A DNA stretch of 52,874 nucleotides, from NCBI GenBank assembly GCA_012735575.1, contig JAAYGY010000036.1, forward strand, positions 1 through 52,874. Direction: 5' to 3'. The DNA is from Clostridiales bacterium (GTDB taxonomy: Bacteria; Bacillota; Clostridia; Caldicoprobacterales; UBA3941). The position numbers and the translations under genes were made by a program. Position 1 is the stretch's first letter. Each line of letters begins with the position of its first letter. This document shows positions 4,573-35,451 of the stretch, piece after piece. Under the pieces are notes generated by a model that ran no database searches, was not told the origin of the DNA, and was given only the letters and a program-made list of their open reading frames with translations.

Positions 4573-4587
4573 AATACTCACCTCTTT

Positions 4588-17765: not shown

Positions 17766-18413
17766 TCAGATTTCATTTCTTGCTTTCTTAATTTTTAATA
17801 TAAACTCCTCAGCTGTTTTTGTTATAGAATCAAAATCTCCGGTCTTTGCACCCTTGGTTAGAGCACTGCCAACCCCTACCGCCACGGCTCCAGCCTTAAT
17901 CCACTCTTCAACGTTGTCTACAGTTACTCCACCGGTAGGCATAAGCTTTGCATAAGGGATGGGGCCTAGGATAGATTTTATGATGTTTGGTCCAAGTAGC
18001 TCACCAGGGAATATTTTGATTATATCGGCTCCGGCTTCCATAGCTTCTACGACTTCCCTGATGGAGGTGGCTCCTGGCATACAGGGGACCCTATACCTGT
18101 TACATAGCTTTACGGTTTCTAAGTTCAAATATGGACTGACAATATACTGGGCACCTGATAAAATAGCTATTCTGGCTGTTTCTGGATCCATGACTGTGCC
18201 AGCACCTATTAGGATTTCTCCATTTCCGTATACATGTGATAAATCCCAAATAAGTCTATCTGCACCAGGAACTGTAAATGTAATTTCAATACCTACTACT
18301 CCGCCCTTTATACAGGCCTCAGCTATTCTGAAAGCCTCCTCACTGGATTCAGCTCGCACAACAGCTACTAACCCACCTTCAACTATCTTGGTTATAATAC
18401 GTTCCTTATCCAT
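17766..18413 (-). CDS. eda: KDPG/KHG aldolase
   Basis: A 215-residue class I aldolase. Glu in GIEITFTVPGA, Lys in DIIKIFPGE (the Schiff-base lysine position) and PTGGVTVDN (phosphate site) match the KDPG/KHG aldolase family. It cleaves KDPG to pyruvate and glyceraldehyde-3-phosphate. It is second in the operon, 29 bases after the iclR gene, with AAAGGAG correctly spaced. Together with the downstream kinase it forms the lower end of the hexonate route. Confidence 0.92.
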   Translation of the reverse strand: MDKERIITKIVEGGLVAVVRAESSEEAFRIAEACIKGGVVGIEITFTVPGADRLIWDLSHVYGNGEILIGAGTVMDPETARIAILSGAQYIVSPYLNLETVKLCNRYRVPCMPGATSIREVVEAMEAGADIIKIFPGELLGPNIIKSILGPIPYAKLMPTGGVTVDNVEEWIKAGAVAVGVGSALTKGAKTGDFDSITKTAEEFILKIKKARNEI

Positions 18414-19298: not shown

Positions 19299-19329
19299 TA
19301 AAAAAAGATAAGGTCAAATGACCTTATCT
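19299..19329 (-). terminator. Rho-independent terminator after the URO-D family gene
   Basis: AGATAAGGTC (19306-19315) and GACCTTATCT (19320-19329) form a perfect 10-bp stem with an AAAT loop. In the minus direction it is followed by a run of T at 19306-19300. The stem touches the stop codon. It closes the long array that begins at the gnd gene. Confidence 0.9.
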
Positions 19330-20345
19330 CATAAAACTTTAGCTGCTCTAGCCATTGCTAAAATATTGGCAGGAGGAACATTGGGAAGAATCTCCTCGTG
19401 GCTTGGTGATATTACTATATTTGGTCCCAAAATATCCCTTACCCGCTTAACTTCATCTGCAACCTCCTCCGGACTTGCATTGACAATAAAGTTTTGGGCA
19501 TCAATGCCTCCCACAAAGGCTAAATCATCTTTATACTGAGCCAGTTCTTTTGCTGACATTCCCGTAGCCTGTGCCTGTATGGGATGGAGGACATCCACTC
19601 CAGCTTCTATCAAATCCGGTATAATCCTATAAATAGAACCGCAGGAATGGAGCATTATCTTTTTATTATACTTTTTGCCTACTTCAATCAGTCTTTTAAA
19701 GGAAGGGAGAACAAACCTTCTAAATTTATCCGGAGAAATAAACAAATCTAATTGGGTACCAAAATCATTGCCAAAGAACATAATATCCGTCCTATCCCCA
19801 AGTCCAGCAAAAAACTTATCATTGGCCGCAACGTAGAAATCCACCATCTTCTCCGTAGCTGCCTCAACGACTTTGGGGTTTACGTACATATTGACAAAAT
19901 AGTTTTCCATGCCAAAAAAATCCGCAAGAAGGTGGAAAAAGGGGCACCACATTCCTGTAAATACAGCCTTGTCCTGATATTTTTCCACCTCTTTATAGAT
20001 ATCAGTGAAATCGCAATAATCTGGGTCGGGCCAGGGATAGGCTTCTATGTCAGCAACAGTTTCTGCTTCTGCAAAACACCCGGCAGCGCTTAAGGATTTT
20101 CTTTCAACACCATAGCCAGGATCAAAGGCAGGGCGACCCTCAGGATGTTTGTATCCTGAATCTGCTGGAATCCACCTGCAATCATCTTCTAAAAAATTAT
20201 AGATAGCCTCACGAGTCGGCTCAATTCCCCATTCTTCAGCAAAAATGGGGACCGTCTTGTCGTTGGGATGACCTGTCCAGAATGCATTATGGTCTACATT
20301 CTTCCGATTAAAAATATCTAATACCTTTTGTCTTGATGTTACCAT
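19329..20345 (-). CDS. Uroporphyrinogen decarboxylase/methyltransferase-family protein
   Basis: A 338-residue protein of the URO-D superfamily, which includes HemE and corrinoid methyltransferases of the MtaA/MtbA/CmuA type. Visible landmarks are LHSCGSIYRIIPDLI, a His-x-Cys pair like the zinc ligands of the methyltransferases, and the barrel end AFVGGIDAQNFI. There is no haem gene nearby and no corrinoid-binding protein in the window. Its place after two alpha-mannosidases suggests action on a carbohydrate, perhaps a methyl ether, but this is inference. The start at 20345 (MVTSRQKVLDIF) is chosen for its GGGGGAG site; an upstream in-frame ATG at 20411 would overlap the GH38 gene. Confidence 0.75.
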   Translation of the reverse strand: MVTSRQKVLDIFNRKNVDHNAFWTGHPNDKTVPIFAEEWGIEPTREAIYNFLEDDCRWIPADSGYKHPEGRPAFDPGYGVERKSLSAAGCFAEAETVADIEAYPWPDPDYCDFTDIYKEVEKYQDKAVFTGMWCPFFHLLADFFGMENYFVNMYVNPKVVEAATEKMVDFYVAANDKFFAGLGDRTDIMFFGNDFGTQLDLFISPDKFRRFVLPSFKRLIEVGKKYNKKIMLHSCGSIYRIIPDLIEAGVDVLHPIQAQATGMSAKELAQYKDDLAFVGGIDAQNFIVNASPEEVADEVKRVRDILGPNIVISPSHEEILPNVPPANILAMARAAKVL

Positions 20346-20407
20346 AACTACTCCCCCATTACTTAAATAGTTCAAAATAAACAAGGTTAACTTCTCACAT
20401 TCATAAG

Positions 20408-23400
20408 TCAAATCTGCTTACATCTAATCTTTATAGTGTTTATTTCAAAGGGGTTAAATTTAAGCACTTTAGTATCCTTATCCCACTTCTCATCGTCAAG
20501 CTTTTGCTCCATAAGATCAACAAGTTCCACATCATCAATCTGAAAACCAAAATTTAGCTTTGCCGATACTGCTTTTCCATGGCATTCATATAGTCTTATT
20601 ATTACATCATTGTCATCCTCAGCCTTTTTAATGGACTCTACTACTACGCTGTCATTGTCTATGGTAATGAAGGAATGGGCCTCCTTTAGCTCTGGCTTTT
20701 CAGTACCAGTTTTACCTTTTATTACCCTAAAAGGTATATTTAGCTCATATCCTTCTCTTACTACATTACCTTCTTCATAATTTCCCACGTGGGGATATAA
20801 TGAATAGGTAAACTCGTGGACTGCCCGATCCGCTTCCGGATCTGGATAACCAGGACTTCTTAAAAGATTAATGCTTATATTATTCTCCCATACCTTATGT
20901 CCGTATTTGCAATCATTTAGTAAGGCAACACCGTAGTCCCCCTGGGAAATATCCACCCATTTGTGAGCACATATCTCATATTTTGCCATATCCCAACTGG
21001 TATTCTGATGAGTAGGCCGCTTGATATTGCCAAACTGTATATCACAGGTAACCTGATCAGAATAGGCATTTACTGAAAATATGGATCTTAACATCTTATT
21101 ATCCTCTTTCCAGTCTACCACTGTATTAAAATCTATCCTCTTGCTGCCATAGGTTAATACTACCTCTTGAGTCAAAGTAGATTTACCGTATGCATAGGTA
21201 TTCTTTTTAATAACTTTAGGGCCATCAATATAGTTTGCAGAACCAACAAGTTTAAAAGGATCTCCTGGATATTCATCGTATTGTATAGGAAAATCCCAGG
21301 CATCTCCATGGTCCTGGTATACTATTAAGCGATTGCTTCTTTGCTCTTTATCCAAAACCTCACGATTGCATTCCTTGTCATATACAGACTCTATAGAGCC
21401 ATCGTGGGCAAAAACTACTCTTATTTTGTCATTCTCTAAAACATTATCCTGCTTTATTTCCATGGCTGGTACTTCTTTATTAGAGTCTAAATCTACTACC
21501 ATATATCCTAATGCAGGCACTTTTACATTTATCCACTTATCCTCATGCTTAATCCACTGGCTTCTATCCCATGACAGTGAATTTATAGCTACGATATAGT
21601 TTTTAGCATGGCCTGGATCTATTTTATCTACAACTGATAAATAGCTGTCTTTTATCATATTCTCAGTGGTTTCCATAAGCTTTGCATATCTTTCTAAGGA
21701 CTCATCATACACGCGGGTAATAGAAGATCCCGGCAAAATATCATGGAACTGATATAGTAATACTTCCTTCCAAATCTTTCCAAGCTCATGCTGTGGATAC
21801 TCTTTTCCAGCTGTTATAGATGCCACAACTGCAGCAAACTCCAGCTCCCTAAGATTTATCTCCAACTTTCTATTATAGCGTTTGCTCCTGGCCTGAGAGG
21901 TATAAGTACCCTGGTGCCTTTCAAGGTATAATTCACCATGCCATTTTTTATATTTATCCTTATTCTTTTCTATCCTTCGGAAAAAGTTTAGAGCAGGTTC
22001 CTGAGTAACGGGAACCAGGCCATTTAGATTCTTTTGCCTCTTTAACCTCTCAAGATGTTCCTGTCCGGGACCTCCTCCACCATCCCCTATTCCAAATAGT
22101 AATAAGGCTCTATCTGACACCCCTTTATCTAAGAATTCCCTTTCTGTTTTTGCAATGGCTCGAGGGGCAGCCGAGCTGTTATATGTTCCCTCTGGCGGCA
22201 TATGAGCCAAAACTTCACTGCCATCTATTCCTTTCCATATAAAGGTATGATGGGGGAATTTATTTATCAGACTCCATGAGAGCTTTATGGTCATAAAATA
22301 GTCTACGCCCGATTTTTTTAGTATTTGAGGCAAGGCTGCGCTGTAGCCAAATACATCGGGTAGCCATAGGATCTTCATGTCCTGGCCAAACTCCTCTTTG
22401 AAAAACCTTTTTCCATATAATATCTGCCTTACAAGGGATTCGCCACCAGGTACATTGGTGTCGGATTCCACCCACATGGCACCTTGAACTTCCCATCTGC
22501 CTTCCTCAACCCGTTCTTTTATCTGTGCATACAGCTCTGGATAATAATCCTTTATCCATTGGTATAGCTGGGGCTGGCTGGCACCAAACACATAGTCCGG
22601 ATATTTTTCCATGTTTCTAAGTACTGTTGAAAAAGAACGAGCACCCTTTCTAATAGTTTCCCGTATAGGCCATAACCATGCCAGATCAATATGAGCATGG
22701 CCTATAGCACTTATAGATAGGGATTCATCGCCACACTTTTTGTCCAATTCCCTTGCCAGTATCTCCCTTGCTTTAGCAATACCTTCTTCCTTATACTGCA
22801 ATAAAGCATTGGTAGCATCACTTAAGGCAGTTAAAATACTCATATGTCTGGCCTTGTCTTCAGGTATTTGCTCCATCAGCTCATATAGCACTTCAAAATC
22901 GTAATACAGCTGAAGAGCCTCTTTATTACATATAGCAATATGAGCTTCCTTTAATGTACCACTATCCTGATATTTGCCAAACAGGTCATTGCATCCAGCA
23001 TCAGCCCAGATATCAATGATTTTATCCCCTGGTTTTGCAATATCTAAAAAATGTACTACCTTCTTACCAGGACGACCCAGAGAATAATCGAATTCTGAAC
23101 TCACTGTAGTAAGCCCTTGAACAGGACATCCATTCTCGTCTGCTATATATGCTTCGCCGCTTAAATCTATTAATAAGACCAGATCTTCTTCATCTGCATC
23201 CTCTGGAACAGTACCCTTAAAGTTAAACCAGGCACAGTCCCAAAGTTGTCCCCAGGAATCACCAATCTTTAGATTTCGTTTTTCTCCTGACATTCTCTCT
23301 TCAAAGGAAACTGGCTCCGGAGTTACCCAGGCCGTTACTTCTAGCGGTGCTATAGGTTTATAAACAAGATCTTTGATTTTATCTTTTACTTCTTTTAAAT

Positions 23401-23431
23401 ACCTTTTTGTCAGGTGGTTATAATAGGGCAT
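20408..23431 (-). CDS. GH38 alpha-mannosidase, long form (1007 aa)
   Basis: It has about 240 residues of N-terminal beta-rich domain before the catalytic barrel, as in the cytosolic/vacuolar Ams1/MAN2C1 type. The zinc pair is in IGHAHIDLAWLW (His247, Asp249). The nucleophile is Asp359 in LPDVFGYSAALP. YQFHDILPGSS supplies the downstream family motif. No signal peptide. The AAAGGTG site is correctly placed. It follows the 940-residue GH38 gene by 97 bases and precedes the URO-D family gene. Its different domain plan from the other two GH38 enzymes suggests another linkage or aglycone preference. Confidence 0.92.
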   Translation of the reverse strand: MPYYNHLTKRYLKEVKDKIKDLVYKPIAPLEVTAWVTPEPVSFEERMSGEKRNLKIGDSWGQLWDCAWFNFKGTVPEDADEEDLVLLIDLSGEAYIADENGCPVQGLTTVSSEFDYSLGRPGKKVVHFLDIAKPGDKIIDIWADAGCNDLFGKYQDSGTLKEAHIAICNKEALQLYYDFEVLYELMEQIPEDKARHMSILTALSDATNALLQYKEEGIAKAREILARELDKKCGDESLSISAIGHAHIDLAWLWPIRETIRKGARSFSTVLRNMEKYPDYVFGASQPQLYQWIKDYYPELYAQIKERVEEGRWEVQGAMWVESDTNVPGGESLVRQILYGKRFFKEEFGQDMKILWLPDVFGYSAALPQILKKSGVDYFMTIKLSWSLINKFPHHTFIWKGIDGSEVLAHMPPEGTYNSSAAPRAIAKTEREFLDKGVSDRALLLFGIGDGGGGPGQEHLERLKRQKNLNGLVPVTQEPALNFFRRIEKNKDKYKKWHGELYLERHQGTYTSQARSKRYNRKLEINLRELEFAAVVASITAGKEYPQHELGKIWKEVLLYQFHDILPGSSITRVYDESLERYAKLMETTENMIKDSYLSVVDKIDPGHAKNYIVAINSLSWDRSQWIKHEDKWINVKVPALGYMVVDLDSNKEVPAMEIKQDNVLENDKIRVVFAHDGSIESVYDKECNREVLDKEQRSNRLIVYQDHGDAWDFPIQYDEYPGDPFKLVGSANYIDGPKVIKKNTYAYGKSTLTQEVVLTYGSKRIDFNTVVDWKEDNKMLRSIFSVNAYSDQVTCDIQFGNIKRPTHQNTSWDMAKYEICAHKWVDISQGDYGVALLNDCKYGHKVWENNISINLLRSPGYPDPEADRAVHEFTYSLYPHVGNYEEGNVVREGYELNIPFRVIKGKTGTEKPELKEAHSFITIDNDSVVVESIKKAEDDNDVIIRLYECHGKAVSAKLNFGFQIDDVELVDLMEQKLDDEKWDKDTKVLKFNPFEINTIKIRCKQI

Positions 23432-23528
23432 TTTTTCAACACCTTTCCTTATATAAATCCTTCTTTTGTAAAATTATAATATTTGTGCTGCACTAGTATA
23501 ATGCTTATAAGGATAATAAGTATGCACC

Positions 23529-26351
23529 CTAAAATTCAACACAAATATTAGCGATGCTATAGGGTGATACTGTAAATTCTATAGTTTTACCATCTAAAAC
23601 TACACCACTTAAGTCTGTCTTGTTTTCGTTTATATCAGTATAGTAGGCTTTGGATGCTTCTTTAAACAGCCTGATCACAGCTTTAGTAGAATTTCCTTCA
23701 GTTTCATAGACCCTTATTATAAGTTTATCCCTTCCATCTTCTGAGCTTTCAGTCATTTTTATACCTGATATGACTACATCTCCCTTTTCCAGGGTGAGGA
23801 AAGATCCAGCTGTAGACAGCACGCCCTCATGAATAGATGTAGACACTACGCTAAATTCATGATTATAATCATAAGCCTTGGCTATCAAGTCTTTATTGTT
23901 ATCAAAGGTTACAGGACATACCCCAAACTTGAATTTATGTATACCAATCTCGGGATAAGGATCTGGATCGAAGGAGCTTCTGATTAATGTTATAGCCAGG
24001 GCATCCTGGGTTCCCCTAAAGCCATACTTGGAATCTGTAACTAGCATTATACCCTTTTTGTTTTGATCAAGGGGCAGTGCTGCCGCCCAGCTATTAGCAG
24101 GTACATCCCCATCCATATCCTCTCTGTCAATGGTTCCAAAGGGAATATCGTATCTGTAATTCTTACACTTATATGCTACAGGCATATAGAAATTCAGCTG
24201 AGGTATGCCATATTTTTTCTCCCCTATTTCACGCCATTCACAAGTCACCTCATAGTTTAGGATAGGGCTATTACAATCTAGGGATATTATGGCAGTAAGC
24301 TTGGAGTCCATAAATTCCATATCTATACTTATGGATTTTCTCAGATTTTCTGATTTATAGGAAACATTTTTTACTCTAACATTATTGTTAAGCTCTTTAA
24401 CATTCATATACGGTCCTACTCGCCAGGATGTCATTCCCATAGATTCATCCTCAAGTATGAATCTAAATATACCTGCTGGCCTGTCTGGAGACACTAGTAT
24501 CTCACCTGTTTCCTTGTCTGTCATTGAAATAATGGCTCCAGTCCTTGAGTCAAATTGGGCTTTGATATAATCATTCTCTAAAATAAATTCTTCAACCCTG
24601 TCTACCCTGGAGTCTAATGGATATAGAACTTTAATGTGGGAGTCTTTCCTCTCTGTCATCACATAGGTGCTATATCCTAAACCTGGAACACGTGCCTTGA
24701 TCAGTACCCTTATATACTGATGTCCCCAATAAGGATTAAATCCATGATCCAGTAGCTGATGCTCCACCACATTACCATTCATATCCTTAAATATGATCCT
24801 ATCAATATCATAATGCCAATCCCAAACTGTAATCTGGCAAACTTCTTCTCTTTCATAAGGTGAGGGATTGAAAATAGTAAAGATTCTAGTTTTCCCTAGC
24901 CCTCTCTCGGGTTGACTAATCCTAAACCCTTCTATACCAAACCCTACTCCTGCACCTTCTGATATTGTTTCTCTAAAGTCCTGGTTTTCAGGTACCAGTG
25001 AGGCAGTATTTATCCTAGCTGCAATACTTCTTAAGGCATAGCTTCTGCGTGTATTTGCTATGGCCATAGTTTCCTGGAAGAGCCCCAGGGCATGTTCCCT
25101 GCTGCCTATAACACAGGAGCCTGGAAGAATATCATGAAAATGGTTAAACAAAACCTTTTCCCAGGCCTTGGCAAACTCCTCTGAAGAATAACTATAAGTA
25201 TCCAATATATGAGCCATTGAATTAAATGCCTCAGATTCATTTAATACAGCTTCTGCCATCCTGTTTGCCTTCTTTATCCTGCTTTGGGAGGTATAGCAGC
25301 CGGTAAACACAAAATTTTGTTCTTCACATTCTACCACTGGAATCTTATCTGCCTGCTCTTCAATAAGACTAAAGAATTCATCATACCTGCCAAACCTTAT
25401 ATTAGGAAATACAGGCCAGGTATTCATATCAATAATTCTTTCTATATCACGCCTGGTAGGCCCGCCGCCATGATCGCCTACACCATAGACCTTTAACATG
25501 GTATCTATGCCATATTTAGTACAAAATTCCGGAACATACAGAGCCATTGAGGGATTAATATCAGCATTATACCAGGTTAACTCCCTATATACTAGTATGG
25601 ATTCACCTGAGGGAGCTATCCACCTGTATATATTCTCACCATCATCGCCTCTACAATGGTAGTAGTACTTTATCCCACCCTTTGAACATATCTCAGGTAC
25701 ATTCATATTATGTCCAAATGTATCAGGCTCAAAGTCAATCTTTAATGAATCGGGATCCAGGTCTAATAGGTTTGAAAGATATCTCTTTGTATATAGGATA
25801 TGCCTGGCTAGACTTTCTCCACTGGGCATATTTTTATCTGTCTCTACCCAGGTAGAAGCGGTAACTTCCCATCTTCCTTCCTTAATCCTTTGCTTAATCT
25901 CTTCTAGCATAGCCGGGTCATACTGTTCAACTATTCTATATACCGAAGCCTGGGATTGGGAAAAGGTAAAATCAGGATATTCCTTCATTAAGTCCAGCAT
26001 GGTTCGAAAGGTATCCAGTGTTATGGCTACCGTTTCATCATAACGCCACATCCAGTTCATATCAATATGTGCATGAGCGCAGCATATCATATTGAAGTAT
26101 TTTGCATCATCCTTAAGTTCTAAGATCATCTCTTCTCCCTTAGTTGCCGTTCCTTTACTTATAACCCCATCCTCCTGGAACTTTTGGTATACATATTGGA
26201 TTGCATCATTGATTATATCATCGTATTTTCCAGATTTAATAACTGATATTTTGGAGCCATAAGCTAGCTGGGCTAAAATTCGCTGGGCCCAATAACCAGA
26301 TGCACTATCACTATTGTACATTTCTAATATTTTTTCTTTCATAATACCCAT
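23529..26351 (-). CDS. GH38 alpha-mannosidase, intermediate form (940 aa)
   Basis: Catalytic motifs are CAHAHIDMNWMW (His95, Asp97), EPDTFGHN (nucleophile Asp210) and FNHFHDILPGS. About 90 residues precede the barrel, so this is a third architecture next to the 831- and 1007-residue paralogues. The ATG at 26351 has GGGAAGGGG seven bases upstream. That site lies inside the end of the preceding lyxose-isomerase gene: the two reading frames overlap by 41 bases, which points to translational coupling. It is cytoplasmic. The immediate neighbour isomerase can use mannose in characterised relatives. Confidence 0.9.
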   Translation of the reverse strand: MGIMKEKILEMYNSDSASGYWAQRILAQLAYGSKISVIKSGKYDDIINDAIQYVYQKFQEDGVISKGTATKGEEMILELKDDAKYFNMICCAHAHIDMNWMWRYDETVAITLDTFRTMLDLMKEYPDFTFSQSQASVYRIVEQYDPAMLEEIKQRIKEGRWEVTASTWVETDKNMPSGESLARHILYTKRYLSNLLDLDPDSLKIDFEPDTFGHNMNVPEICSKGGIKYYYHCRGDDGENIYRWIAPSGESILVYRELTWYNADINPSMALYVPEFCTKYGIDTMLKVYGVGDHGGGPTRRDIERIIDMNTWPVFPNIRFGRYDEFFSLIEEQADKIPVVECEEQNFVFTGCYTSQSRIKKANRMAEAVLNESEAFNSMAHILDTYSYSSEEFAKAWEKVLFNHFHDILPGSCVIGSREHALGLFQETMAIANTRRSYALRSIAARINTASLVPENQDFRETISEGAGVGFGIEGFRISQPERGLGKTRIFTIFNPSPYEREEVCQITVWDWHYDIDRIIFKDMNGNVVEHQLLDHGFNPYWGHQYIRVLIKARVPGLGYSTYVMTERKDSHIKVLYPLDSRVDRVEEFILENDYIKAQFDSRTGAIISMTDKETGEILVSPDRPAGIFRFILEDESMGMTSWRVGPYMNVKELNNNVRVKNVSYKSENLRKSISIDMEFMDSKLTAIISLDCNSPILNYEVTCEWREIGEKKYGIPQLNFYMPVAYKCKNYRYDIPFGTIDREDMDGDVPANSWAAALPLDQNKKGIMLVTDSKYGFRGTQDALAITLIRSSFDPDPYPEIGIHKFKFGVCPVTFDNNKDLIAKAYDYNHEFSVVSTSIHEGVLSTAGSFLTLEKGDVVISGIKMTESSEDGRDKLIIRVYETEGNSTKAVIRLFKEASKAYYTDINENKTDLSGVVLDGKTIEFTVSPYSIANICVEF

Positions 26352-26919
26352 ATGATAACCCCTTCCCTTGTTTTTCGTTTACTAATTTGACCAAAGCAGG
26401 TTCATCCTCAATTATCCGGCTGAATCTGCCTATATCCGGATTATCAAAAAAGTTATCATGCTCATCATCATTAGCCGTGGAAACCTCACCTAAAATTGCA
26501 TATTCTGACTCTGCCCAAAAAGAATGCCTGATACCTCTTTCCATGGTAATTCTCTCCCCTGCTGACAAGAGGATAGGTTTGCCTGTAGGTATTTCTCTTT
26601 CCTCTCCATTGACTTGTAAACTTACTGCATCTTTATCAGAGGATATTTCTACTGCTAATACTCCCCACCTGCAAATAATATCTTCCTTCTTTTTAGCATG
26701 ATAATGGGTAGGTGTTACTTGCCCCTTTCTTACATACATAAGTTTTTCGCAGTATTCTGGCTGATCAGTTAAATTGATTAAAGTAAGGCCAAACTTATTA
26801 AAGTCCCCAAGGCCAAAATCTGTAACATCCCATACAGGATTAGGGGGAAGGACCCAGCAATGCCTCTTAAAGTTTTCCATGGCTTCTCTAATCACAGCAT
26901 TGATTTCAGATCTTTTCAT
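26311..26919 (-). CDS. D-lyxose ketol-isomerase family (D-mannose isomerase activity possible)
   Basis: A 202-residue cupin. Metal ligands are visible in THYHAKKKEDII (His-x-His and Glu) and the later His in RGIRHSFWA. Family members interconvert D-lyxose/D-xylulose and D-mannose/D-fructose. The start MKRSEINAVI at 26919 has AAAGGGG eight bases upstream; an ATG six codons earlier overlaps that site. Directly after a PfkB kinase gene and before two alpha-mannosidases, it is well placed to convert released mannose to fructose. The C terminus overlaps the next gene by 41 bases. Confidence 0.85.
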   Translation of the reverse strand: MKRSEINAVIREAMENFKRHCWVLPPNPVWDVTDFGLGDFNKFGLTLINLTDQPEYCEKLMYVRKGQVTPTHYHAKKKEDIICRWGVLAVEISSDKDAVSLQVNGEEREIPTGKPILLSAGERITMERGIRHSFWAESEYAILGEVSTANDDEHDNFFDNPDIGRFSRIIEDEPALVKLVNEKQGKGLSYGYYERKNIRNVQ

Positions 26920-26952
26920 TATGTCAGCCCCTTTCATATCTTTAATTCTCCT

Positions 26953-27034
26953 GTTGTGCTATTTCAAACTCGTCACTGCATTAATATAATGTGCTATTGA
27001 TAAGTGATGAAGTAAACGTTCAATAGCCATTATG
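26953..27034. repeat. Dispersed palindromic repeat, copy B (overlaps a gene end)
   Basis: It begins GTTGTGCT at 26953 and holds ATAATGTGCTATTGA (26986-27000) facing TCAATAGCCATTATG (27020-27034). Read on the minus strand it is CATAATGGCTATTGAACGTT and then CACTTATCAATAGC, that is, the two ends of copy D joined without the middle. The last 15 bases encode His-Asn-Gly-Tyr-stop of the PfkB kinase. Confidence 0.7.
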
Positions 27035-28051
27035 ATTACAAAAATTTCTTTTTTCCATTGTCCTATATACCTCCTCAATAGTTGAGATATCCTTCATCCC
27101 ATCGGTAGTGTTTACATGGGACAGACAACAAGCAGCTGCGCTTACAGCTATCTCCAGTGCCTTTTTTGTATCCCAACCATTATAGAGGCTATATAGCATA
27201 CCTGCGCAAAAGGCATCACCGGCACCTACAGTTCCTTTGATATATCCCTCGGGTAGTTTTAGAGAAGGTTGAATATAATAATTGCCATCCGATTCCATAG
27301 CAAAACCACCCTCGGGAGCATGGACCACCGCCAGGTCGTTAACTCCCATGGATATTAATTTTCTGCAAATCTTTTCCATGTTTTCAATTATAAGTTGTCC
27401 GTTACTATCTCTATCAGGAATGCCAGTGGTTAATGATGCTTCTAATTCATTTACAATAAAATAATTGCAGTATTTCAAACTAGGTGGTATGACCCTGGAA
27501 AACCTATCACTGTTTTCACTTACTACATCCAGAGAAGTTTTTATGCCTTGACTTTGGGCCATGGATAAAACCCTGGCCATTACAGTTCCGTACTCGTCAT
27601 CCTCTGAATCCAAAGCGTCCAAAAGCAATGCATAGCCCATATGAAGGAGTTTGGCCTTTATTTTACTAAAATCAAAATGCTGGACACTAAAAATCTTGTT
27701 TGCTCCCCTGTAATGAAAAAATGTACGATTTCCTGTAGATTCAACTGAAATTACATCTGTAAAAGAAGTGCCAATAGTGTAGTCCCTTCTTATCTGACTA
27801 GTGTCTATTCCATTTCGACTAAGAGTATCTATAAAATATTGACCATCCTCATCATCACCTATGACTCCAATGACCTGAATGGGGATAGAGCTGTCTATTT
27901 TTGATAAGTTTATGGACACATTTGCTGGAGCACCACCTATTGACTTATCCAATGTAAGGATGGTTGAAAGATTCCCTTCCCTTGGATAGCTGTCCACAAT
28001 TTTTATATAATCTACAGTTAGATTACCAGCTACTGCTATTCCCTGTCTCAT
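27020..28051 (-). CDS. PfkB-family carbohydrate kinase (fructokinase-like)
   Basis: A 343-residue ribokinase-fold enzyme. SIGGAPANVSINLSKI is the first PfkB signature and KGTVGAGDAFCAGML the second, with the catalytic Asp in GAGDAF. Its sequence does not carry the KDG-kinase signature seen in the protein at 16726-17751, so a different substrate is likely. Fructose is the simplest suggestion because a lyxose/mannose isomerase gene follows. The start at 28051 is chosen because GGGGAG lies nine bases before it. The last four residues His-Asn-Gly-Tyr and the TGA stop are encoded by repeat copy B, so the natural C terminus may have been altered. Confidence 0.82.
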   Translation of the reverse strand: MRQGIAVAGNLTVDYIKIVDSYPREGNLSTILTLDKSIGGAPANVSINLSKIDSSIPIQVIGVIGDDEDGQYFIDTLSRNGIDTSQIRRDYTIGTSFTDVISVESTGNRTFFHYRGANKIFSVQHFDFSKIKAKLLHMGYALLLDALDSEDDEYGTVMARVLSMAQSQGIKTSLDVVSENSDRFSRVIPPSLKYCNYFIVNELEASLTTGIPDRDSNGQLIIENMEKICRKLISMGVNDLAVVHAPEGGFAMESDGNYYIQPSLKLPEGYIKGTVGAGDAFCAGMLYSLYNGWDTKKALEIAVSAAACCLSHVNTTDGMKDISTIEEVYRTMEKRNFCNHNGY

Positions 28052-28070
28052 TTTCATGCACTCCCCGAAA

Positions 28071-29582
28071 TTATAATGTAACTCCATCCTTAAATATAGC
28101 TATTTCTCGAAAGTCATTCTCCTCATTCTTAGCTAACACTCGACCAGAGATTACATCTAGAATATATTCAAAAAACTCCTTTGATACATCTTCCATAGTT
28201 TTATCTTGTAAAATTACCCCTGCATCAAAGTCAATCCAGTTTTTCTTGCTGTCAGCCAGCACACTATTGGTAGAAACCTTTACTGTAGGTACTGGCCCTC
28301 CCAAAGGAGTACCCCTTCCAGTAGTAAAGAGTATTAAATGAGCACCACTGGCCACCAGTGCGGTCACCGCAACAATATCATTTCCTGGGCCATAGAGAAG
28401 ATTGAGGCCATTTAAGGATACCGGATCCCCATAATCCAATACATCCACAACAGGGCTGGTTCCCCCCTTTTGAATACAGCCCAATGACTTTTCCTCTAAA
28501 GTTGAGATTCCTCCTTTCTTGTTGCCTGGAGAGGGATTCTCATATATAACCTGATCGTACCTTATAAAATACTCTTTGAAATTATTTATCATCTTGACGC
28601 ATTTTTGAAACACTTCTTCAGATACACAACGATTCATCAATATGGTCTCAGCGCCAAACATTTCAGGAACTTCTGTTAATATGGTTGTACCTCCTAAGGA
28701 GACTAAGGTATCTGAAAAAACTCCCAGCAAGGGATTTGCAGTAATACCTGAAAAACCGTCTGAACCACCGCATTTTAAGCCTACCTTAAGCTTTGATACC
28801 GGAACCTGCTGTCTGGAGAAGTTTTCTGCATAAGACACCAGCTCCTCAAGTATAGCCATACCCTCCTGATGCTCATCCTCTACATCCTGGGAATTTAAAA
28901 ACTTAACCCTATTTATATCTATAGGTCCTTGTTCTTTTAATACCTTTTTAAACTCTTCTATATTATTATTTTCACAGCCCAGTCCCAACACCAGCACACC
29001 TCCTGCATTGGGATGGTTGACCAGGCCGGCTAAGATTTTCTGAGTGTTTTTATGGTCCTCCCCTAACTGGGAGCATCCATAGGGATGGGAGAAAAAATGA
29101 ATTCCATCAATATTCCGTCCTTTAAAATGATGTCGTGCAGAATAGACCAGCCTTTCAGCTACTTTATTAACACAGCCTACAGTATTTACGATCCATATCT
29201 CATTTCGTATTCCCACATCTCCGTTAGGTCTTACGTACCCTTCAAAGGTGATTTGACAGGCAGAACTGGGATTAGTAGTAGTTTTATCCTCAGGCTCATA
29301 GGTATAATCCAGTATTCCCTCCAGGTTGGTAGCTATATTGTGCACATGTACCAAACTACCAGCCTTAATAGGTTGAGTGGCATGCCCTATTGGTGCTCCA
29401 TATTTTATGATGTTTTGTCCAGCAGCTACATCTTCTATGGCTATCTTATGCCCTACTCCTATATCCTCTGCTACCTCAATATGTACATTGTTAAAACTAA
29501 GGGGATTTCCCTTTTTTATAGGCACTAAGGCAACCGCAACATTATCCCTTTCATGGATCTTTAATACAGGACTTGCAGTCAT
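28071..29582 (-). CDS. uxaA: Altronate dehydratase
   Basis: A 503-residue full-length UxaA with an N-terminal SAF domain (about residues 1-90: KIHERDNVAVALVPIKKG) and a C-terminal catalytic domain (FFSHPYGCSQLGED, KCGGSDGFSGITANP). It dehydrates D-altronate to 2-keto-3-deoxygluconate using iron. Its ATG overlaps the uxaB stop by four bases (ATGA), so the two are translationally coupled. The product feeds the KDG kinase and KDPG aldolase encoded at 16726-18413. Confidence 0.93.
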   Translation of the reverse strand: MTASPVLKIHERDNVAVALVPIKKGNPLSFNNVHIEVAEDIGVGHKIAIEDVAAGQNIIKYGAPIGHATQPIKAGSLVHVHNIATNLEGILDYTYEPEDKTTTNPSSACQITFEGYVRPNGDVGIRNEIWIVNTVGCVNKVAERLVYSARHHFKGRNIDGIHFFSHPYGCSQLGEDHKNTQKILAGLVNHPNAGGVLVLGLGCENNNIEEFKKVLKEQGPIDINRVKFLNSQDVEDEHQEGMAILEELVSYAENFSRQQVPVSKLKVGLKCGGSDGFSGITANPLLGVFSDTLVSLGGTTILTEVPEMFGAETILMNRCVSEEVFQKCVKMINNFKEYFIRYDQVIYENPSPGNKKGGISTLEEKSLGCIQKGGTSPVVDVLDYGDPVSLNGLNLLYGPGNDIVAVTALVASGAHLILFTTGRGTPLGGPVPTVKVSTNSVLADSKKNWIDFDAGVILQDKTMEDVSKEFFEYILDVISGRVLAKNEENDFREIAIFKDGVTL

Positions 29583-31093
29583 ACTATCCCCCCTAATGCA
29601 GTGGCCATGCCACTTGTTAAAATCTCACTTAAGTAGCCTTTAACCTTTTGAGATAGGCCTGGTATCTGATTAAGGTCCATATCCCAAAATTCCTTTTTCC
29701 CTAAAACCTGTGTGCATAATAAGTCCAGATCAGCATTTTTCTCATAATTGGACCAAATCTCTTGGAAAAACTCCAGTACATCTTCATCATCCTGGACGCT
29801 ATAGGTTTCATCCTTTCGCTGTCCCAAAAGTGCGCCGTCTTTTAGCTGAGTTCCACGATAAAAGGCCAACAAAGATGCTAAGGAAAAGGTCAAAACCTGT
29901 GGCAGTTCTTTTTTAAGTTCCACGTATTCCATTAATGAAGGCAATACCCTAACCTTCCATTTAGAAACTGAATTTAAAGAGATGCTAAGTAACCTATGTT
30001 CTATAAAAGGATTTGCAAATCGTTCTAATACTGCTTCCGCAAACTCCATTTTCTCCTTATGTGGTAAATCTAAAACAGGAATAATTTCGTCATATATGCC
30101 TTTTTTCATGTAGGATAATATTACTTTATCTTCTATACATTGTCTTACTGTGTCTAAACCATAAAGATATGCCATCAGTGCTGTCATGGTATGGGCTCCG
30201 TTTAGTATCCGTACCTTTCTTGTACGGTAGGGAGTTAAATCATCAGTCCAAATGACATTTAATCCTGCCTTATGAAGGGGGAATTCCTCTGCCAGTTTCT
30301 TATCTCCCTCAATAACCCATAAATGGAAGATTTCCCCTGTATCCACCAGCCTATCCTCATAACCTGATTCTTTTGTTATATTTTGAATTTCATCTACAGG
30401 ATATCCGGTCACGATACGGTCCACCAGGGTATTTAAGAAGTGGTTGTGCGCTATAATCCACTGTCTGAATTCATCTTCCAATTGCCATTCATCTATAAGC
30501 CTAAGCACTATTCTCTTTAGATTGTCTCCATTTTTATCGATGAGCTCACAGGGAAGAATTATCATACCCTTTTGCGGGCAACCATTGAATGCTTTAAACC
30601 GCTCATAAAGAAATGCCGTCACCTTAGCGGGAAATGATGTTGGACACTTACTAGTAGGTTTATCCTCCTTTAGGTATGCAATTCCTGCCTCAGTGGTGTT
30701 GGAAACTATAAACCTTAGATCAGGCTGAGCTGCACACTCTAAAAATGCCTGCCATTCCTCATAGGGATTAATGGTCCTGCTGATAGAGGTAATAATCTGC
30801 CTTTTTTCTACTACCTGCCCTTTATTTATCCCTCTTAATAAGAGGGTGTATAGGCCATCCTGCTGGTTTAGGATATGGCAAAGCCCTTGGGGTATAGGTT
30901 GAACCACCACCACTTTGCCCATAAACAGACCTTGGCTGTTCATCTCATCTACCATCCAGTCCACAAAAGCTCTCAGGAAATTTCCTTCACCAAACTGAAT
31001 GATACGCTCAGGCATATCCTCCATACTACCTATCTTTATCCCTTGAAAAGTATCCAACCCTTCTTTTAACATCTGTCTGTTTAGTTGCTTCAC
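29579..31093 (-). CDS. uxaB: Tagaturonate reductase (altronate oxidoreductase)
   Basis: A 504-residue member of the mannitol dehydrogenase superfamily with UxaB features: IIQFGEGNFLRAFVDWM for the nucleotide end, SNTTEAGIAY and LNGAHTMTALMAYLYG in the catalytic part. It reduces D-tagaturonate to D-altronate with NADH. GTG is the probable start, with GGGGGATGAGGG upstream. The matching uronate isomerase UxaC is not in the window. Together with uxaA it defines the galacturonate branch of hexuronate breakdown. Confidence 0.9.
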   Translation of the reverse strand: MKQLNRQMLKEGLDTFQGIKIGSMEDMPERIIQFGEGNFLRAFVDWMVDEMNSQGLFMGKVVVVQPIPQGLCHILNQQDGLYTLLLRGINKGQVVEKRQIITSISRTINPYEEWQAFLECAAQPDLRFIVSNTTEAGIAYLKEDKPTSKCPTSFPAKVTAFLYERFKAFNGCPQKGMIILPCELIDKNGDNLKRIVLRLIDEWQLEDEFRQWIIAHNHFLNTLVDRIVTGYPVDEIQNITKESGYEDRLVDTGEIFHLWVIEGDKKLAEEFPLHKAGLNVIWTDDLTPYRTRKVRILNGAHTMTALMAYLYGLDTVRQCIEDKVILSYMKKGIYDEIIPVLDLPHKEKMEFAEAVLERFANPFIEHRLLSISLNSVSKWKVRVLPSLMEYVELKKELPQVLTFSLASLLAFYRGTQLKDGALLGQRKDETYSVQDDEDVLEFFQEIWSNYEKNADLDLLCTQVLGKKEFWDMDLNQIPGLSQKVKGYLSEILTSGMATALGGIV

Positions 31094-31127: not shown

Positions 31128-32417
31128 TCACACATCTTCGGTAAACTTGCTTTTGTCAGTCCACAATCCCAGGGCTGGATTGCTAATATAGAAGATCTCC
31201 TCACCATCTTCCAGTATATTAAATCCATCCTTTAGCTTACCAGGATCATATTTTTTCAAGGCCTCTTCAAGGTCCATGTATTTATAATTAACTCCCTCTA
31301 CCTCCTGCCTGGTTAAATGCCCAGGAGCATAGGTTATGGAGAACCTTCCATCCGAAGAACCGTGAATGAGATGGGCTGCCACTGATTGATTCTCTTGTAA
31401 ATCCTTATTCTCCTTAAACAGCTGGAGTACCTTCAACCTGCCAGCGTAGCCATATTTTCTGATAAGCCTGTCATTTTCCTTATCCTCACCAAATTGCCTC
31501 ACCCCTGGTGCTAATACAATTAGCTCACCATCATCTGCGATGGCCATCCGGGTTCTATATACAGCTTTATTGCCCAGCCAGGTGCTTTTAAACTCCTGTT
31601 CATCCAGATAGACCACAACTTTCTTTAAAGGCTTATCCACATATTCCAAATTCTTTTGCTGGCTAAGCTTTACCGCTTCTTCAAATAATGATCTGTCCCT
31701 TCCTACAAACAGTCCATGAATCTTAATTCCATCTTCACTATTTGTAGTAATGGTTAAAACATACATAAGGGGTATATCCTTTATAAAATGCTCCTCACAA
31801 TAGTCAAAAACCTTGCGTACAGGGGAATGATCCCTTCCCATAATCCTCTCCATTCCAAAGACTGCACCTAACATATGACTTTTATTTATAATGTCCATTC
31901 CCCCACAGCCTACAAATATATTCTTGCTGTAGTTGGCCATGCCTACTACCTCATGGGGGACCACCTGGCCAATAGATATAATTAGATCATAGCTTTTGTC
32001 AAGCAAAAGTCTATTTATCTCTACATCTATGGGCTCATCTATTAACCCTTCAGAAATCTTGCTGATATACTCTCCAGGAACCTGGCCAATTTTAACTACA
32101 TCCTCCCGCCAGTTGTGAACAATAAAGCGCTCTTTTGGAATATCCGGTCCGAAAAATATATCTATCTCCTCAGAAGTCATAGGCATATGAGTGCCTAGTG
32201 CAGGCATAATATCAACCTGACAGTAGTCTTTTAGTATATTATAGTATAGACTGGTAATGTCCCCAGCCCCGGAATGAGCCCTGGTTAAATCCGGTGGAAT
32301 TAGTAAAACCTTCTTTAATTCTTTGTCTTGGCCCTCTAAGGACCCTCTTAAAGTATCCTCAAGCTCTTTTTTGCCAATCCCCTGCCCATCCTTTGAAGTG
32401 ATGCTAAGTCTAACCAT
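31128..32417 (-). CDS. LarA-family nickel-dependent 2-hydroxyacid racemase/epimerase
   Basis: A 429-residue LarA (DUF2088) homologue. The candidate active-site residues all fit Lactobacillus plantarum LarA by spacing: His77 (GTHMPMT), His155 (VPHEVVG), Lys165 (SKNIFVG) and His181 (KSHMLG) against His108, His174, Lys184 and His200. The last three share a constant offset of 19. These residues serve catalysis and covalent attachment of the nickel-pincer cofactor. The family includes lactate and malate racemases and a D-gluconate 2-epimerase. Lying between gluconokinase and uxaB, this copy is probably a hexonate C2-epimerase rather than a lactate racemase. The cofactor genes larB, larC and larE are not in the window. 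Confidence 0.82.
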   Translation of the reverse strand: MVRLSITSKDGQGIGKKELEDTLRGSLEGQDKELKKVLLIPPDLTRAHSGAGDITSLYYNILKDYCQVDIMPALGTHMPMTSEEIDIFFGPDIPKERFIVHNWREDVVKIGQVPGEYISKISEGLIDEPIDVEINRLLLDKSYDLIISIGQVVPHEVVGMANYSKNIFVGCGGMDIINKSHMLGAVFGMERIMGRDHSPVRKVFDYCEEHFIKDIPLMYVLTITTNSEDGIKIHGLFVGRDRSLFEEAVKLSQQKNLEYVDKPLKKVVVYLDEQEFKSTWLGNKAVYRTRMAIADDGELIVLAPGVRQFGEDKENDRLIRKYGYAGRLKVLQLFKENKDLQENQSVAAHLIHGSSDGRFSITYAPGHLTRQEVEGVNYKYMDLEEALKKYDPGKLKDGFNILEDGEEIFYISNPALGLWTDKSKFTEDV

Positions 32418-32426
32418 TTTTTCACC

Positions 32427-33863
32427 TCAATCACAAGTTTTATTGTACCATTCCATATATTTTTGAAATCGCTCTCCATAAAATTTGGCCTTATCCCTAT
32501 TGGGAGTGATAACCTTTTTAGGTTTTTGCTGAAAATCCTGTAAAGAATTGATCTGTCCCAACACCTTAAGCACAATAGCTACTGCACCCATGATAGATGC
32601 ATGCTCCATATCAAAGGTGTATATTTCCTTTTGAAATATATCCGCCGCCATCTGCAGCCACCAGGGGGAATTTTCAATACCTCCAGAAATCCTAATCTCC
32701 TCGGGAACTCCTCCAACACTAGTGAGTATCTGGTAACACTGATAAAGATTAAATAGTACACCTTCCAAAATAGAGTAATAGAAATCTCCTAAATCATGAT
32801 GATCCCTAATTTCTTGAAAACCTCCAAGTCTAGCACCCCGCCAGCCTGGAGAGCGCTCCCCGTACATAAAGGGTAAGAATATTGGGGCATCCATTAGCCT
32901 GTCCTTGTCTATCATATTCTCCAGTTCATCATAACTATAGGCCCTGTTATTAAACCTATTTACAAACCAGTTTACACAGTTTCCCGCTCCCGATGTTGCA
33001 GCCCCTGCCAACCGCTTGCCTTCTGCTACATAATAGCACCAGGTTGATGGTGTTTGAGGAATTACAGGGTGGGAGGTGGCCATGCGGATTGCACCACTGG
33101 TGCCAACAGACATAGTCATTATGCCATCTCCCATAGCTCCAGCACCTATCTGGTTCATAGCCCCGTCTGCTCCGGTAATTACCACGGGTATCCCCCTCTT
33201 TACATTCAAAAAATCTGCTGCTTCATCCTTTAGGGGAGCACTAAACTCAGCCTCCCGAAGAGGAGCCAATTGATCTAAGGATAGCTTTGCAAACTCTAAG
33301 ATTTCATGGTCCCAATCCAGATTGTGGATATTCATAAAGCCAGTACCTGATGCCACGTTGTAGGATACCCCACGTTCTCCGGTCATACGCTGAAATATAT
33401 ATTCAGGTTGAGATGAAATAAGTACAGAATTCCTGTATATACCACCCTTTTCTTTAGCATGTATCCATTTCCATAGAGGGAAGGTGGTATGTACAGGACA
33501 CCCCGTTTTTCTATATATCTCATTTGTCAGATCCCTGTTTTTCTTATAGCTGTCCACAGTCTCTGCAGCCTGGTTATTGGCCCAGGTCAAGGTCCTGCCT
33601 ATGGGCTTTCCCCCTTTATCTATAAGCAGCAAACTATGCCAGGTACTTGAAAGCGCTATTGCATCAATATTGCCTTCAAAGGATTCCAGCAAGGACCTGC
33701 CACATTCCATCAACGCCCTATATACACCTTCTGGTTCTTGGGTTGTCACATTACTTATACCCTCGTCATAGGCTTGATCTTTAGCAGCCACTATACCTTG
33801 GCTGCTTGAGTATATTATAGCTTTGGCCGATGAGGTGCTAGCCTCCAATGCTAGAACATTCAT
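32427..33863 (-). CDS. gntK: Gluconokinase, FGGY family
   Basis: A 478-residue FGGY kinase starting MNVLALEASTSSAKAIIYSS, with the phosphate-binding N-terminal motif. ITGADGAMNQIGAGA, MSVGTSGAIRMA and ISGGIENSPWWLQM are the later FGGY blocks. Its match to FGGY gluconate kinases, together with the 6-phosphogluconate dehydrogenase 11 bases upstream, makes D-gluconate the likely substrate. The start at 33863 has AAGGAGG six bases upstream; an in-frame start nine codons earlier lacks this. Confidence 0.85.
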   Translation of the reverse strand: MNVLALEASTSSAKAIIYSSSQGIVAAKDQAYDEGISNVTTQEPEGVYRALMECGRSLLESFEGNIDAIALSSTWHSLLLIDKGGKPIGRTLTWANNQAAETVDSYKKNRDLTNEIYRKTGCPVHTTFPLWKWIHAKEKGGIYRNSVLISSQPEYIFQRMTGERGVSYNVASGTGFMNIHNLDWDHEILEFAKLSLDQLAPLREAEFSAPLKDEAADFLNVKRGIPVVITGADGAMNQIGAGAMGDGIMTMSVGTSGAIRMATSHPVIPQTPSTWCYYVAEGKRLAGAATSGAGNCVNWFVNRFNNRAYSYDELENMIDKDRLMDAPIFLPFMYGERSPGWRGARLGGFQEIRDHHDLGDFYYSILEGVLFNLYQCYQILTSVGGVPEEIRISGGIENSPWWLQMAADIFQKEIYTFDMEHASIMGAVAIVLKVLGQINSLQDFQQKPKKVITPNRDKAKFYGERFQKYMEWYNKTCD

Positions 33864-33874
33864 AGCCTTCCTCC

Positions 33875-35299
33875 TTATTTTTCCATCCAATTGGTATGAA
33901 AGCTTCCTTCCTTATCTATACGCCTATAGGTGTGAGCCCCAAAATAATCCCTTTGAGCCTGAACCATATTGGCAGACAACCTCTCCCTTCTATAACCGTC
34001 AAAATAAGCCAGAGCAGAACTAAAGGAGGATACAGGAATTCCATTTTGAACAGCTGTACTAATGACCCGCCTCCAACCGTCTTGTGCTCTTTCCAGAACT
34101 TCTTTAAAGTAGGGATCCAGCATCAGATTTTTTAGATCTGGATTTCTATCGTAGGCTTCTTTAATCTTATTTAAGAATTGAGCACGAATAATACATCCTT
34201 CTCTCCACAAGAGGGCAATGTCTCCCAAGTTTAGATCCCATTTGTAAAACTTGGATGCCTGATCTAACAGTTGGAATCCTTGAGCATAGGAACATATCTT
34301 AGATGCATACAAGGCATTGCCTATATCCCGTATAAACTGTTCCCTTTCTGAAGATGTGCCCTCAAATTTAGGCTCTGGTCCTTTTAGAATCTTGGAGGCT
34401 TCCACTCGCTCTTCTTTAATTGCTGACAAATATCTGGCGAAAACTGCATCAACTATTGTTGGAGCAACTACACCCAGCTCCAAGGCCTCCTGAGATGTCC
34501 ACTTGCCTGTTCCTTTACTACCTGCACTATCCAGTATAAGATCTATCAAGGGCAAACCTGTTTCCTCGTCTACTCTACCCAATATATCTGCTGTGATTTC
34601 AATCAGATATGAATTAAGTTCGCCTTCATTCCATTCTTTAAAGACCTGTTGCATTTCACTAGCTGACATGCCTAGTAACTCTTTCATTAAAAAGTAGGCT
34701 TCACTTATAAGCTGCATATCTCCATATTCGATACCGTTATGAGTCATCTTTACATAATGCCCTGCTCCATCAGGTCCTATATAGTCGCAGCAGGGGGTCT
34801 TGCCATCAACCTTTGCTGAAACATCAATAAGGATGTGCTTAACCTGCTCCCAGGCCTCTTTACTTCCACCGGGCATGATGCTGGGACCCCTAAGTGCCCC
34901 TTCTTCTCCTCCAGAAATTCCAGTACCTAAAAAGAGAATACCCTTCTCTTCCAGCTCCCTGGTTCTTCTAATGGTATCCTTGAAAAAGGAGTTTCCCCCG
35001 TCTATTATAATGTCTCCCTCATCTAATAGGGGCAATAGATTATTGATGATAATATCTACCGGATGACCAGCCTTTACCATAAGCATTATCTTTCTGGGTT
35101 TCTCCAAAGACTCTATTAACTCCTCCAGAGAATATGAGGCAACAATATTTTCCTTACCCCTGGCTGCTCCTTCCATAAACTTTTCTGTAACTTCCCTAGT
35201 TCGGTTATAAACAGATACCCTGTATCCTTTGCTTTCCATGTTAAGAACCAAATTCTGTCCCATAACCGCAAGACCTACTAAACCAATATCTGACTTCAT
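33875..35299 (-). CDS. gnd: 6-phosphogluconate dehydrogenase, decarboxylating
   Basis: A 474-residue enzyme with an N-terminal Rossmann motif (GLVGLAVMGQNLVLNM) and the 6PGDH signature with catalytic Lys in HYVKMTHNGIEYGD. The C-terminal ANMVQAQRDYFGAHTY is the substrate tail of the family. It oxidises 6-phosphogluconate to ribulose-5-phosphate, CO2 and NAD(P)H. It is first in the long leftward array with a promoter about 150 bases upstream. The start at 35299 is set by AAGGAGG nine bases before it; the upstream TTG would put the start before its own ribosome binding site. Confidence 0.94.
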   Translation of the reverse strand: MKSDIGLVGLAVMGQNLVLNMESKGYRVSVYNRTREVTEKFMEGAARGKENIVASYSLEELIESLEKPRKIMLMVKAGHPVDIIINNLLPLLDEGDIIIDGGNSFFKDTIRRTRELEEKGILFLGTGISGGEEGALRGPSIMPGGSKEAWEQVKHILIDVSAKVDGKTPCCDYIGPDGAGHYVKMTHNGIEYGDMQLISEAYFLMKELLGMSASEMQQVFKEWNEGELNSYLIEITADILGRVDEETGLPLIDLILDSAGSKGTGKWTSQEALELGVVAPTIVDAVFARYLSAIKEERVEASKILKGPEPKFEGTSSEREQFIRDIGNALYASKICSYAQGFQLLDQASKFYKWDLNLGDIALLWREGCIIRAQFLNKIKEAYDRNPDLKNLMLDPYFKEVLERAQDGWRRVISTAVQNGIPVSSFSSALAYFDGYRRERLSANMVQAQRDYFGAHTYRRIDKEGSFHTNWMEK

Positions 35300-35451
35300 T
35301 TGTTTTTCCTCCTTCAAAAGTATAGAAACCTAAATATCCTTGCCTTAGGTCTAGTATTGCCAGTTTTATATGTTACTTTTAATAATACACCTTTTTAATG
35401 TGCTCTAACCAGACTCCCGGCTATTAATATCTGTTTGTTTTATTACTTTAA

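Follow-up and report, generated by a model that had tools for sequence, protein, structure and literature searches.

The closest described relatives of the gene studied here are nickel-pincer enzymes of the LarA superfamily. Membership is recognized by equivalents of the residues that in LarA bind the nickel-pincer cofactor NPN (R75, K184, and H200) or are catalytic (D72, H108, H174, and K298); these residues, together with F175, are discussed by Desguin et al. 2020 (PMC7583248). The same study showed D-gluconate 2-epimerase activity for GntE2 and proposed hexonate epimerization for LarAH group 18, as a hypothesis drawn from signature residues without an assay; we found no assayed member of group 18, or of its family model NF052594, in the literature. 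Enzymes of the GntE kind have a signature of E, V, A, and H at four specificity positions (PMC11770544), and KM values of the characterized relatives for mannonate are high (17 and 120 mM, in an overall range of 9–120 mM). In extracts of Lactobacillus suebicus, mannonate is first phosphorylated and the resulting 6-phosphomannonate is epimerized; free mannonate was not epimerized, and no gene was assigned to the activity (Valk et al.; PMC6978723).

Here, we compare these systems with a LarA homolog, LarAH, encoded in a 52,874-nucleotide stretch of DNA (the window; positions 1 to 52,874 of contig JAAYGY010000036.1 in the Clostridiales bacterium assembly GCA_012735575.1, a genome that is 96.3% complete). 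The analysis tested the family, residues, fold, and gene order of LarAH, fusions of group-18 genes, and the absence of UxuA and of larB, larC, and larE. The gene lies in an operon with the order gnd, FGGY kinase, LarAH, uxaB, uxaA, and PfkB kinase, separated by −16, 9, 34, −4, and −17 nt, the FGGY kinase gene thus overlapping gnd by 16 nt and ending 9 nt ahead of LarAH. Downstream from the PfkB kinase follow a lyxose-isomerase-family gene, two GH38-type genes, a UroD-family gene, and a terminator-like hairpin (Table 1). The original prediction placed the gene between gluconokinase and tagaturonate reductase; the position and the identity of UxaB (689 bits) held, but the identity of the kinase is less secure, since 245 bits against an equivalog cut-off of 649 make “gluconokinase” only a best guess.

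Table 1. Features of the LarAH operon and its surroundings in the window
Feature	Position	Strand	Basis or remark
LarAH group-18 gene, putative nickel-pincer D-mannonate/D-gluconate 2-epimerase	31128..32417	(-)	429 aa, ATG start
gnd, decarboxylating 6-phosphogluconate dehydrogenase	33875..35317	(-)	TIGR00873 743 bits, cut-off 427; first gene of the operon
FGGY-family sugar(-acid) kinase, probable gluconate or mannonate kinase	32427..33890	(-)	Best NCBIfam gntK_FGGY, 245 bits, cut-off 649
uxaB, tagaturonate reductase (mannitol-dehydrogenase family)	29579..31093	(-)	NF002969 689 bits, cut-off 359
uxaA-type altronate/galactarate dehydratase	28071..29582	(-)	Pfam PF20629, PF04295, SAF; galactarate dehydratase TIGR03248 303 bits, under cut-off 731
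PfkB-family sugar kinase	27020..28087	(-)	PF00294; all NCBIfam equivalogs under cut-off
D-lyxose isomerase family cupin protein	26311..26937	(-)	PF07385 163 bits; NF051472 134 bits, under 350
Probable GH38 alpha-mannosidase-type glycoside hydrolase	23529..26351	(-)	NF007331 (mannosylglycerate hydrolase) E 8.5e-21, under cut-off
Probable GH38 alpha-mannosidase-type glycoside hydrolase	20408..23431	(-)	NF007331 (mannosylglycerate hydrolase) E 4.5e-56, under cut-off
UroD-family protein	19329..20411	(-)	PF01208; last gene ahead of the terminator-like hairpin
Terminator-like hairpin, putative	19305..19330	(-)	Pattern scan; 11 pairs + T tail, ends the gene run
KDPG-aldolase-like protein	17766..18413	(-)	Assigned from sequence and KDG-kinase-like neighbor, without family search
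KDG-kinase-like PfkB protein	16726..17751	(-)	NF041633 607 bits, under 700 (cut-off for the full fusion protein)

Several neighbors deserve a remark of their own. Three GH38-type genes and one GH95-type hydrolase gene lie in or near the operon (window 2134-7092 and 20408-26351), which suggests that the sugars come from a glycan containing mannose and uronate. The KDPG-aldolase-like protein is a possible sink for a branch leading from altronate to KDG, and similar genes recur close to group-18 genes in several loci. UroD-family proteins likewise recur in sugar-acid operons (window 19329-20411 and six group-18 loci). The lyxose-isomerase-family cupin gene is found in group-18 operons here (window 26311-26937) and in loci L043, L044, L047, and L055; genomes G212, G285, and G320 have the cupin gene in a group-18 operon and are without UxaC, and the cupin might be an alternative hexuronate isomerase.

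By sequence, LarAH is a member of a previously predicted family, LarAH group 18. It matches NF052594 (“NPN_18_hexonate”; nickel-dependent putative hexonate epimerase, with a curated full-length cut-off of 500 bits) with 669.3 bits over profile positions 4-410 of 411 (E = 1.7e-201) in an NCBIfam search, in which the next best family reached only 51 bits. The protein from the nearest genome is 82% identical. In an alignment of LarAH with 21 relatives at 50%–82% identity, the four active-site residues named in the original prediction (His77, His155, Lys165, and His181) stand where they were claimed to be and are invariant in all 22 diverse sequences, as are Asp43, Arg46, Lys284, and Glu156. In order, D43, R46, H77, H155, E156, K165, H181, and K284 of LarAH correspond to D72, R75, H108, H174, F175, K184, H200, and K298 of LarA, so that the NPN-binding residues (R46, K165, and H181) and the catalytic ones (D43, H77, H155, and K284) are all in place; across 62 group-18 members, these seven positions are invariant, gaps or X aside. 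The specificity residues, which we located by alignment (including to PDB entry 4nar) and not from a ligand structure, are E156, V157, A348, and H349, the signature of GntE. An AlphaFold model of LarAH (pLDDT 92) had as its best PDB match in a structure search 4nar, which is GntE2 (TM 0.80, E 5e-31), followed by LarA and Mar2, and a profile match to 4nar gave E 7.6e-48.

A phylogeny against characterized LarA homologs, proposed originally as a check, set LarAH apart from the lactate and malate racemases: Group 18 and GntE2 fall on one side of a branch with SH-aLRT support of 99, and lactate, malate, and LarAH10-type proteins fall on the other. The GntE2 row is partial and long-branched, and GntE1 and LarAH15 are absent from the tree, which we therefore read for the side of the branch and not for exact sister order. 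A lactate racemase, for which NF033504 requires more than 460 bits and the specificity positions are F, F, W, and E/Q, is ruled out by the tree, by a score of 33.8 bits, and by the residues E, V, A, and H. A malate racemase (more than 500 bits on NF052593 or 462 on NF052595, with H/Q and K in helix 14) is ruled out by the tree, by scores of 51.3 and 36 bits, respectively, and by A348 and H349.

Of the 391 genomes sampled from the class, 58 carry a group-18 gene over the cut-off. Neighbors were counted in 60 loci fetched from this sample, where “near” means on the same strand and at most five genes away, and in a second, partly overlapping set of 71 named loci. The gene gnd is near the group-18 gene in 40/60 and 46/71 loci. 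A short-chain dehydrogenase (SDR) of the D-mannonate oxidoreductase subfamily NF006132 (450 bits; cut-off, 281) is near it in 38/60 loci and directly adjoins it in 30. UxaC (glucuronate isomerase), UxaE (tagaturonate epimerase), and sugar kinases also recur, among them a PfkB kinase in 33/71 loci of the second set. Cultured carriers include Sporobacter termitidis DSM 10068, in which the order is SDR, PfkB, gnd, and LarAH18 (L143), and Peloplasma aerotolerans (L137). Near one group-18 gene, UxaE is directly followed by a gene (L039:4831-6081) whose 416-aa product matches no Pfam family; five loci carry similar genes, and BLASTP found no real similarity to UxaC. No group-18 gene was found in phages.

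Two natural fusions extend this picture. In one genome of the class (G325, locus L090), a 900-aa protein joins Gnd (first 480 residues, 724 bits) to a group-18 domain (the remainder, 612 bits). On a plasmid of Saccharobesus litoralis, a 589-aa protein joins a GntK/IdnK-type gluconokinase (185 bits; cut-off, 114) to a group-18 domain (619 bits), and its gene is followed by larE, larB, tagaturonate epimerase, gnd, and uxaC. In Catenovulum adriaticum, the gene order is gntK, LarAH18, larC, larE, and larB. The arrangements in these two species tie group 18 to both NPN and gluconate metabolism. The public annotation of the plasmid fusion (L199:11488-13257, NZ_CP026605.1) is gluconokinase only, and the word “racemase” is absent from the main text of PMC7953866, on the uronate genes of S. 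litoralis.

The mannonate-forming SDR is over its cut-off in 42/58 group-18 genomes, and full-length UxuA, the mannonate dehydratase, is absent from 39 of these 42, in which mannonate would have no known outlet without the epimerase. Of the 16 group-18 genomes that lack the SDR, half have UxuA. A class-wide anticorrelation between group 18 and UxuA is not significant (any UxuA match in 17/58 vs. 130/333 genomes; p 0.19), and the striking absence is limited to the SDR-bearing subset. Within the family of the genome studied here (G000), UxuA occurs without LarAH18 in G147 and LarAH18 without UxuA in G000 and G356; in G302, LarAH18 is accompanied by weak UxuA matches only. G000 encodes UxaC, and family-model searches of it found neither UxuA nor an SDR of the NF006132 subfamily. 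Without the usual SDR, the mannonate-forming step is a gap in this genome, with UxaB the only obvious reductase; either fructuronate would have to be a further substrate of UxaB, or the cell would have to import mannonate.

From the neighborhoods, the two fusions, and the pathway complementation, we infer that the reaction runs from D-mannonate to D-gluconate and feeds 6-phosphogluconate dehydrogenase, and we consider it probable that LarAH is an NPN-dependent hexonate C2-epimerase of group 18 that interconverts the free acids. Breakdown of hexuronates, sugar acids from plants, would supply mannonate (glucuronate to fructuronate to mannonate), LarAH would convert it to gluconate as a substitute for the dehydratase route, and the neighboring kinase and 6-phosphogluconate dehydrogenase would carry gluconate on to ribulose-5-phosphate. 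By homology to LarA, H77 or H155 would take the proton from the C2 hydroxyl in a proton-coupled hydride transfer, NPN, bound by K165, R46, and H181, would accept the C2 hydride, and re-reduction of the 2-keto intermediate would follow on the opposite face. The part of the original prediction in which a GntE-type hexonate 2-epimerase would turn mannonate into gluconate, and so join a hexuronate branch to gluconate catabolism, is supported by family, tree, and neighbors. Counted against it are the lack of the usual mannonate-forming SDR and of larB, larC, and larE in the same genome, a kinase that scores under the gluconokinase cut-off, the high KM of GntE enzymes for mannonate, and the presence of UxuA in half of the group-18 genomes that lack the SDR.

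The most serious rival keeps the pathway but moves the epimerization one step later: Mannonate kinase would act first, the substrate pair would be 6-phospho-D-mannonate and 6-phospho-D-gluconate, and the product would go straight to Gnd. The L. suebicus activity is a precedent (PMC6978723), the Gnd–LarAH18 fusion would then join two consecutive steps, and a KM of 9–120 mM for free mannonate in GntE enzymes points the same way, as do the Firmicutes kinases adjoining group 18, which by score are not bona fide gluconokinases. In the alignment, moreover, H352, R290, and R358 appear as basic and invariant or nearly so in group 18, whereas the aligned GntE2 letters are not. However, no structure puts these extra basic residues near C6, GntE1, GntE2, and LarAH15 act on free mannonate (PMC7583248, PMC11770544), and the fusion to a GntK/IdnK-type gluconokinase fits gluconate as the product; on balance, we regard the 6-phosphate substrate as unlikely, and as a further step beyond the question of the missing cofactor genes. 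If it were true, group 18 would be a gene candidate for the published, geneless 6-phosphomannonate 2-epimerase activity. The other substrate raised originally, D-altronate (giving D-allonate), or a different hexonate from the branch of UxaA and UxaB, is suggested by uxaB and uxaA lying directly downstream in the operon, close or overlapping. Yet uxaB is near group 18 in only 4/60 and 1/71 loci, against the far higher counts for gnd, so that gnd and D-mannonate oxidoreductase are the general neighbors, and LarAH is ~70% identical to members in mannonate operons. Gnd requires the gluco configuration at C3, and allonate would therefore be a dead end here. On neighborhood statistics and stereochemistry, we reject this substrate, which we hold to be very improbable.

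The preferred reading, a free mannonate/gluconate epimerase, presumes NPN in the cell, and the search for larB, larC, and larE that had been proposed as a check found none of them in G000, an absence that the original prediction had itself named as refuting. LarC had no PF01969 match; LarE had only short partial matches of the ATP-pyrophosphatase type, under cut-off; and the LarB match, also under cut-off, proved to be PurE, flanked by PurL- and PurF-like genes. This result does not settle the matter, because 41/58 group-18 genomes share the absence of a strong LarC with an intact active site, and because in Catenovulum the group-18 gene lies in one run with larC, larE, and larB. Strong LarC matches occur in 17/58 group-18 genomes and in 145/333 of the remaining genomes of the class. 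LarB and LarE never exceed their cut-offs in a group-18 genome that lacks LarC; among the LarC-bearing ones, one is without LarB and four are without LarE over cut-off. Most of these genomes are metagenome bins, in which gene absence was judged by family models; positive controls matched where expected, including the LarC of Thermotoga maritima. To have LarA but not its cofactor genes seems to be common in the class: Of 56 genomes with a lactate-racemase-type LarA (NF033504 over cut-off), 30 have strong LarC and 20 have no LarC match whatever. Absence of LarC is commoner with group 18 than with lactate-racemase-type LarA (Fisher p 0.013, not corrected for kinship). The single-contig genome G319 has a lactate-racemase-type LarA and no LarC match. 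Genomes of family f20 and G244, several of them with a full LarA, gave weak LarC matches (E about 1e-7 to 1e-27) that may stem from a divergent LarC family or from fragments in the bins. In G000 itself, contig C78 (L002/L196) has a second LarA-N-like frame at L196:723-2114, interrupted by a stop and under the Pfam cut-off, with two pieces without a Pfam match, adjoining four-carbon-acid-kinase-like and aldo-keto-reductase-like genes.

Two rival explanations of this absence have to be weighed, and how probable they are is a question separate from that of the substrate. The three genes may be present in the organism within the ~4% of the genome that is absent from the assembly, as could easily happen to the ~3-kb block at a contig end that holds all three in the sister genome G302. 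However, among the 31 group-18 genomes at least 95% complete, LarC is absent in 21, including the single-contig genomes G042 and G193, and an assembly gap here seems improbable to us. Slightly more improbable still is that in genomes without larB, larC, and larE LarAH18 is a relic that has lost its function, or works with a different cofactor, with no NPN chemistry in its own organism. The empty LarC search and off-target LarB (PurE) and LarE matches in G000, and the 41 genomes without strong LarC, would fit, but the NPN-binding and catalytic positions are unchanged in such genomes, their reading frames are intact, and their operons are conserved. Specifically, K165, H181, and K284 are unchanged in all 41 LarC-minus genomes and the other NPN-binding and catalytic positions in 40 of 41 (one gap or X), and these positions are identical between LarC-minus and LarC-plus proteins. 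Residues that tell the two sets of proteins apart lie only outside the active-site set and are compatible with shared ancestry. On the group-18 tree, presence or absence of LarC switches 11 times or more, and well supported branches force at least three of these switches; with the same residues kept throughout, this is not one degenerate lineage.

Carriers without larB, larC, and larE may obtain NPN by uptake, by an unknown route, or from very divergent enzymes; we found no paper on NPN uptake or salvage. Our tentative suggestion, which could well prove wrong, is that most Clostridia-type carriers run NPN-dependent chemistry without recognizable LarB, LarC, or LarE, through uptake of NPN from other organisms or an unknown route of synthesis. 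Genomes often encode intact NPN enzymes but not the known NPN-synthesis genes, and cofactor sharing or a new synthesis route thereby becomes directly testable. The absence of cofactor genes is the most interesting part of the analysis, beyond the main idea of the original prediction, which was right in kind. To what is known of NF052594 the analysis adds the gene context, the two fusions, and the missing cofactor genes, and for group 18 we can propose a concrete substrate and pathway, a predicted bypass from mannonate to gluconate around mannonate dehydratase.

Set against known systems, LarAH shares with the lactate racemase LarA and the malate racemases Mar1 and Mar2 the superfamily, the cofactor-binding residues, and the expected mechanism; these enzymes stand on the opposite side of the tree, their substrate loop reads H-F-F or H-Y-K where that of LarAH reads H-E-V, and LarAH scores only 34–51 bits on their models, against cut-offs of 460–500. 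The 6-phosphomannonate 2-epimerase of L. suebicus would play an equivalent part, a step further along the pathway, likewise feeding Gnd, and is known as an activity only; the words “LarA,” “nickel,” and “racemase” are absent from the main text of PMC6978723. With GntE2 (LarAH20), the D-gluconate 2-epimerase of T. maritima (PDB 4nar, Q9WYS3), LarAH shares the fold (TM 0.80), the side of the tree, and the catalytic and NPN-binding residues. The two proteins are only 24% identical in the fold alignment, belong to different groups (LarAH to 18, GntE2 to 20), and differ beside the catalytic lysine (N283 in LarAH, G286 in GntE2); T. maritima has its own LarC, and the genome of the window does not. 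They also have a pathway idea in common, from mannonate through gluconate to the pentose phosphates, a route that Rodionova reportedly proposed in 2012.
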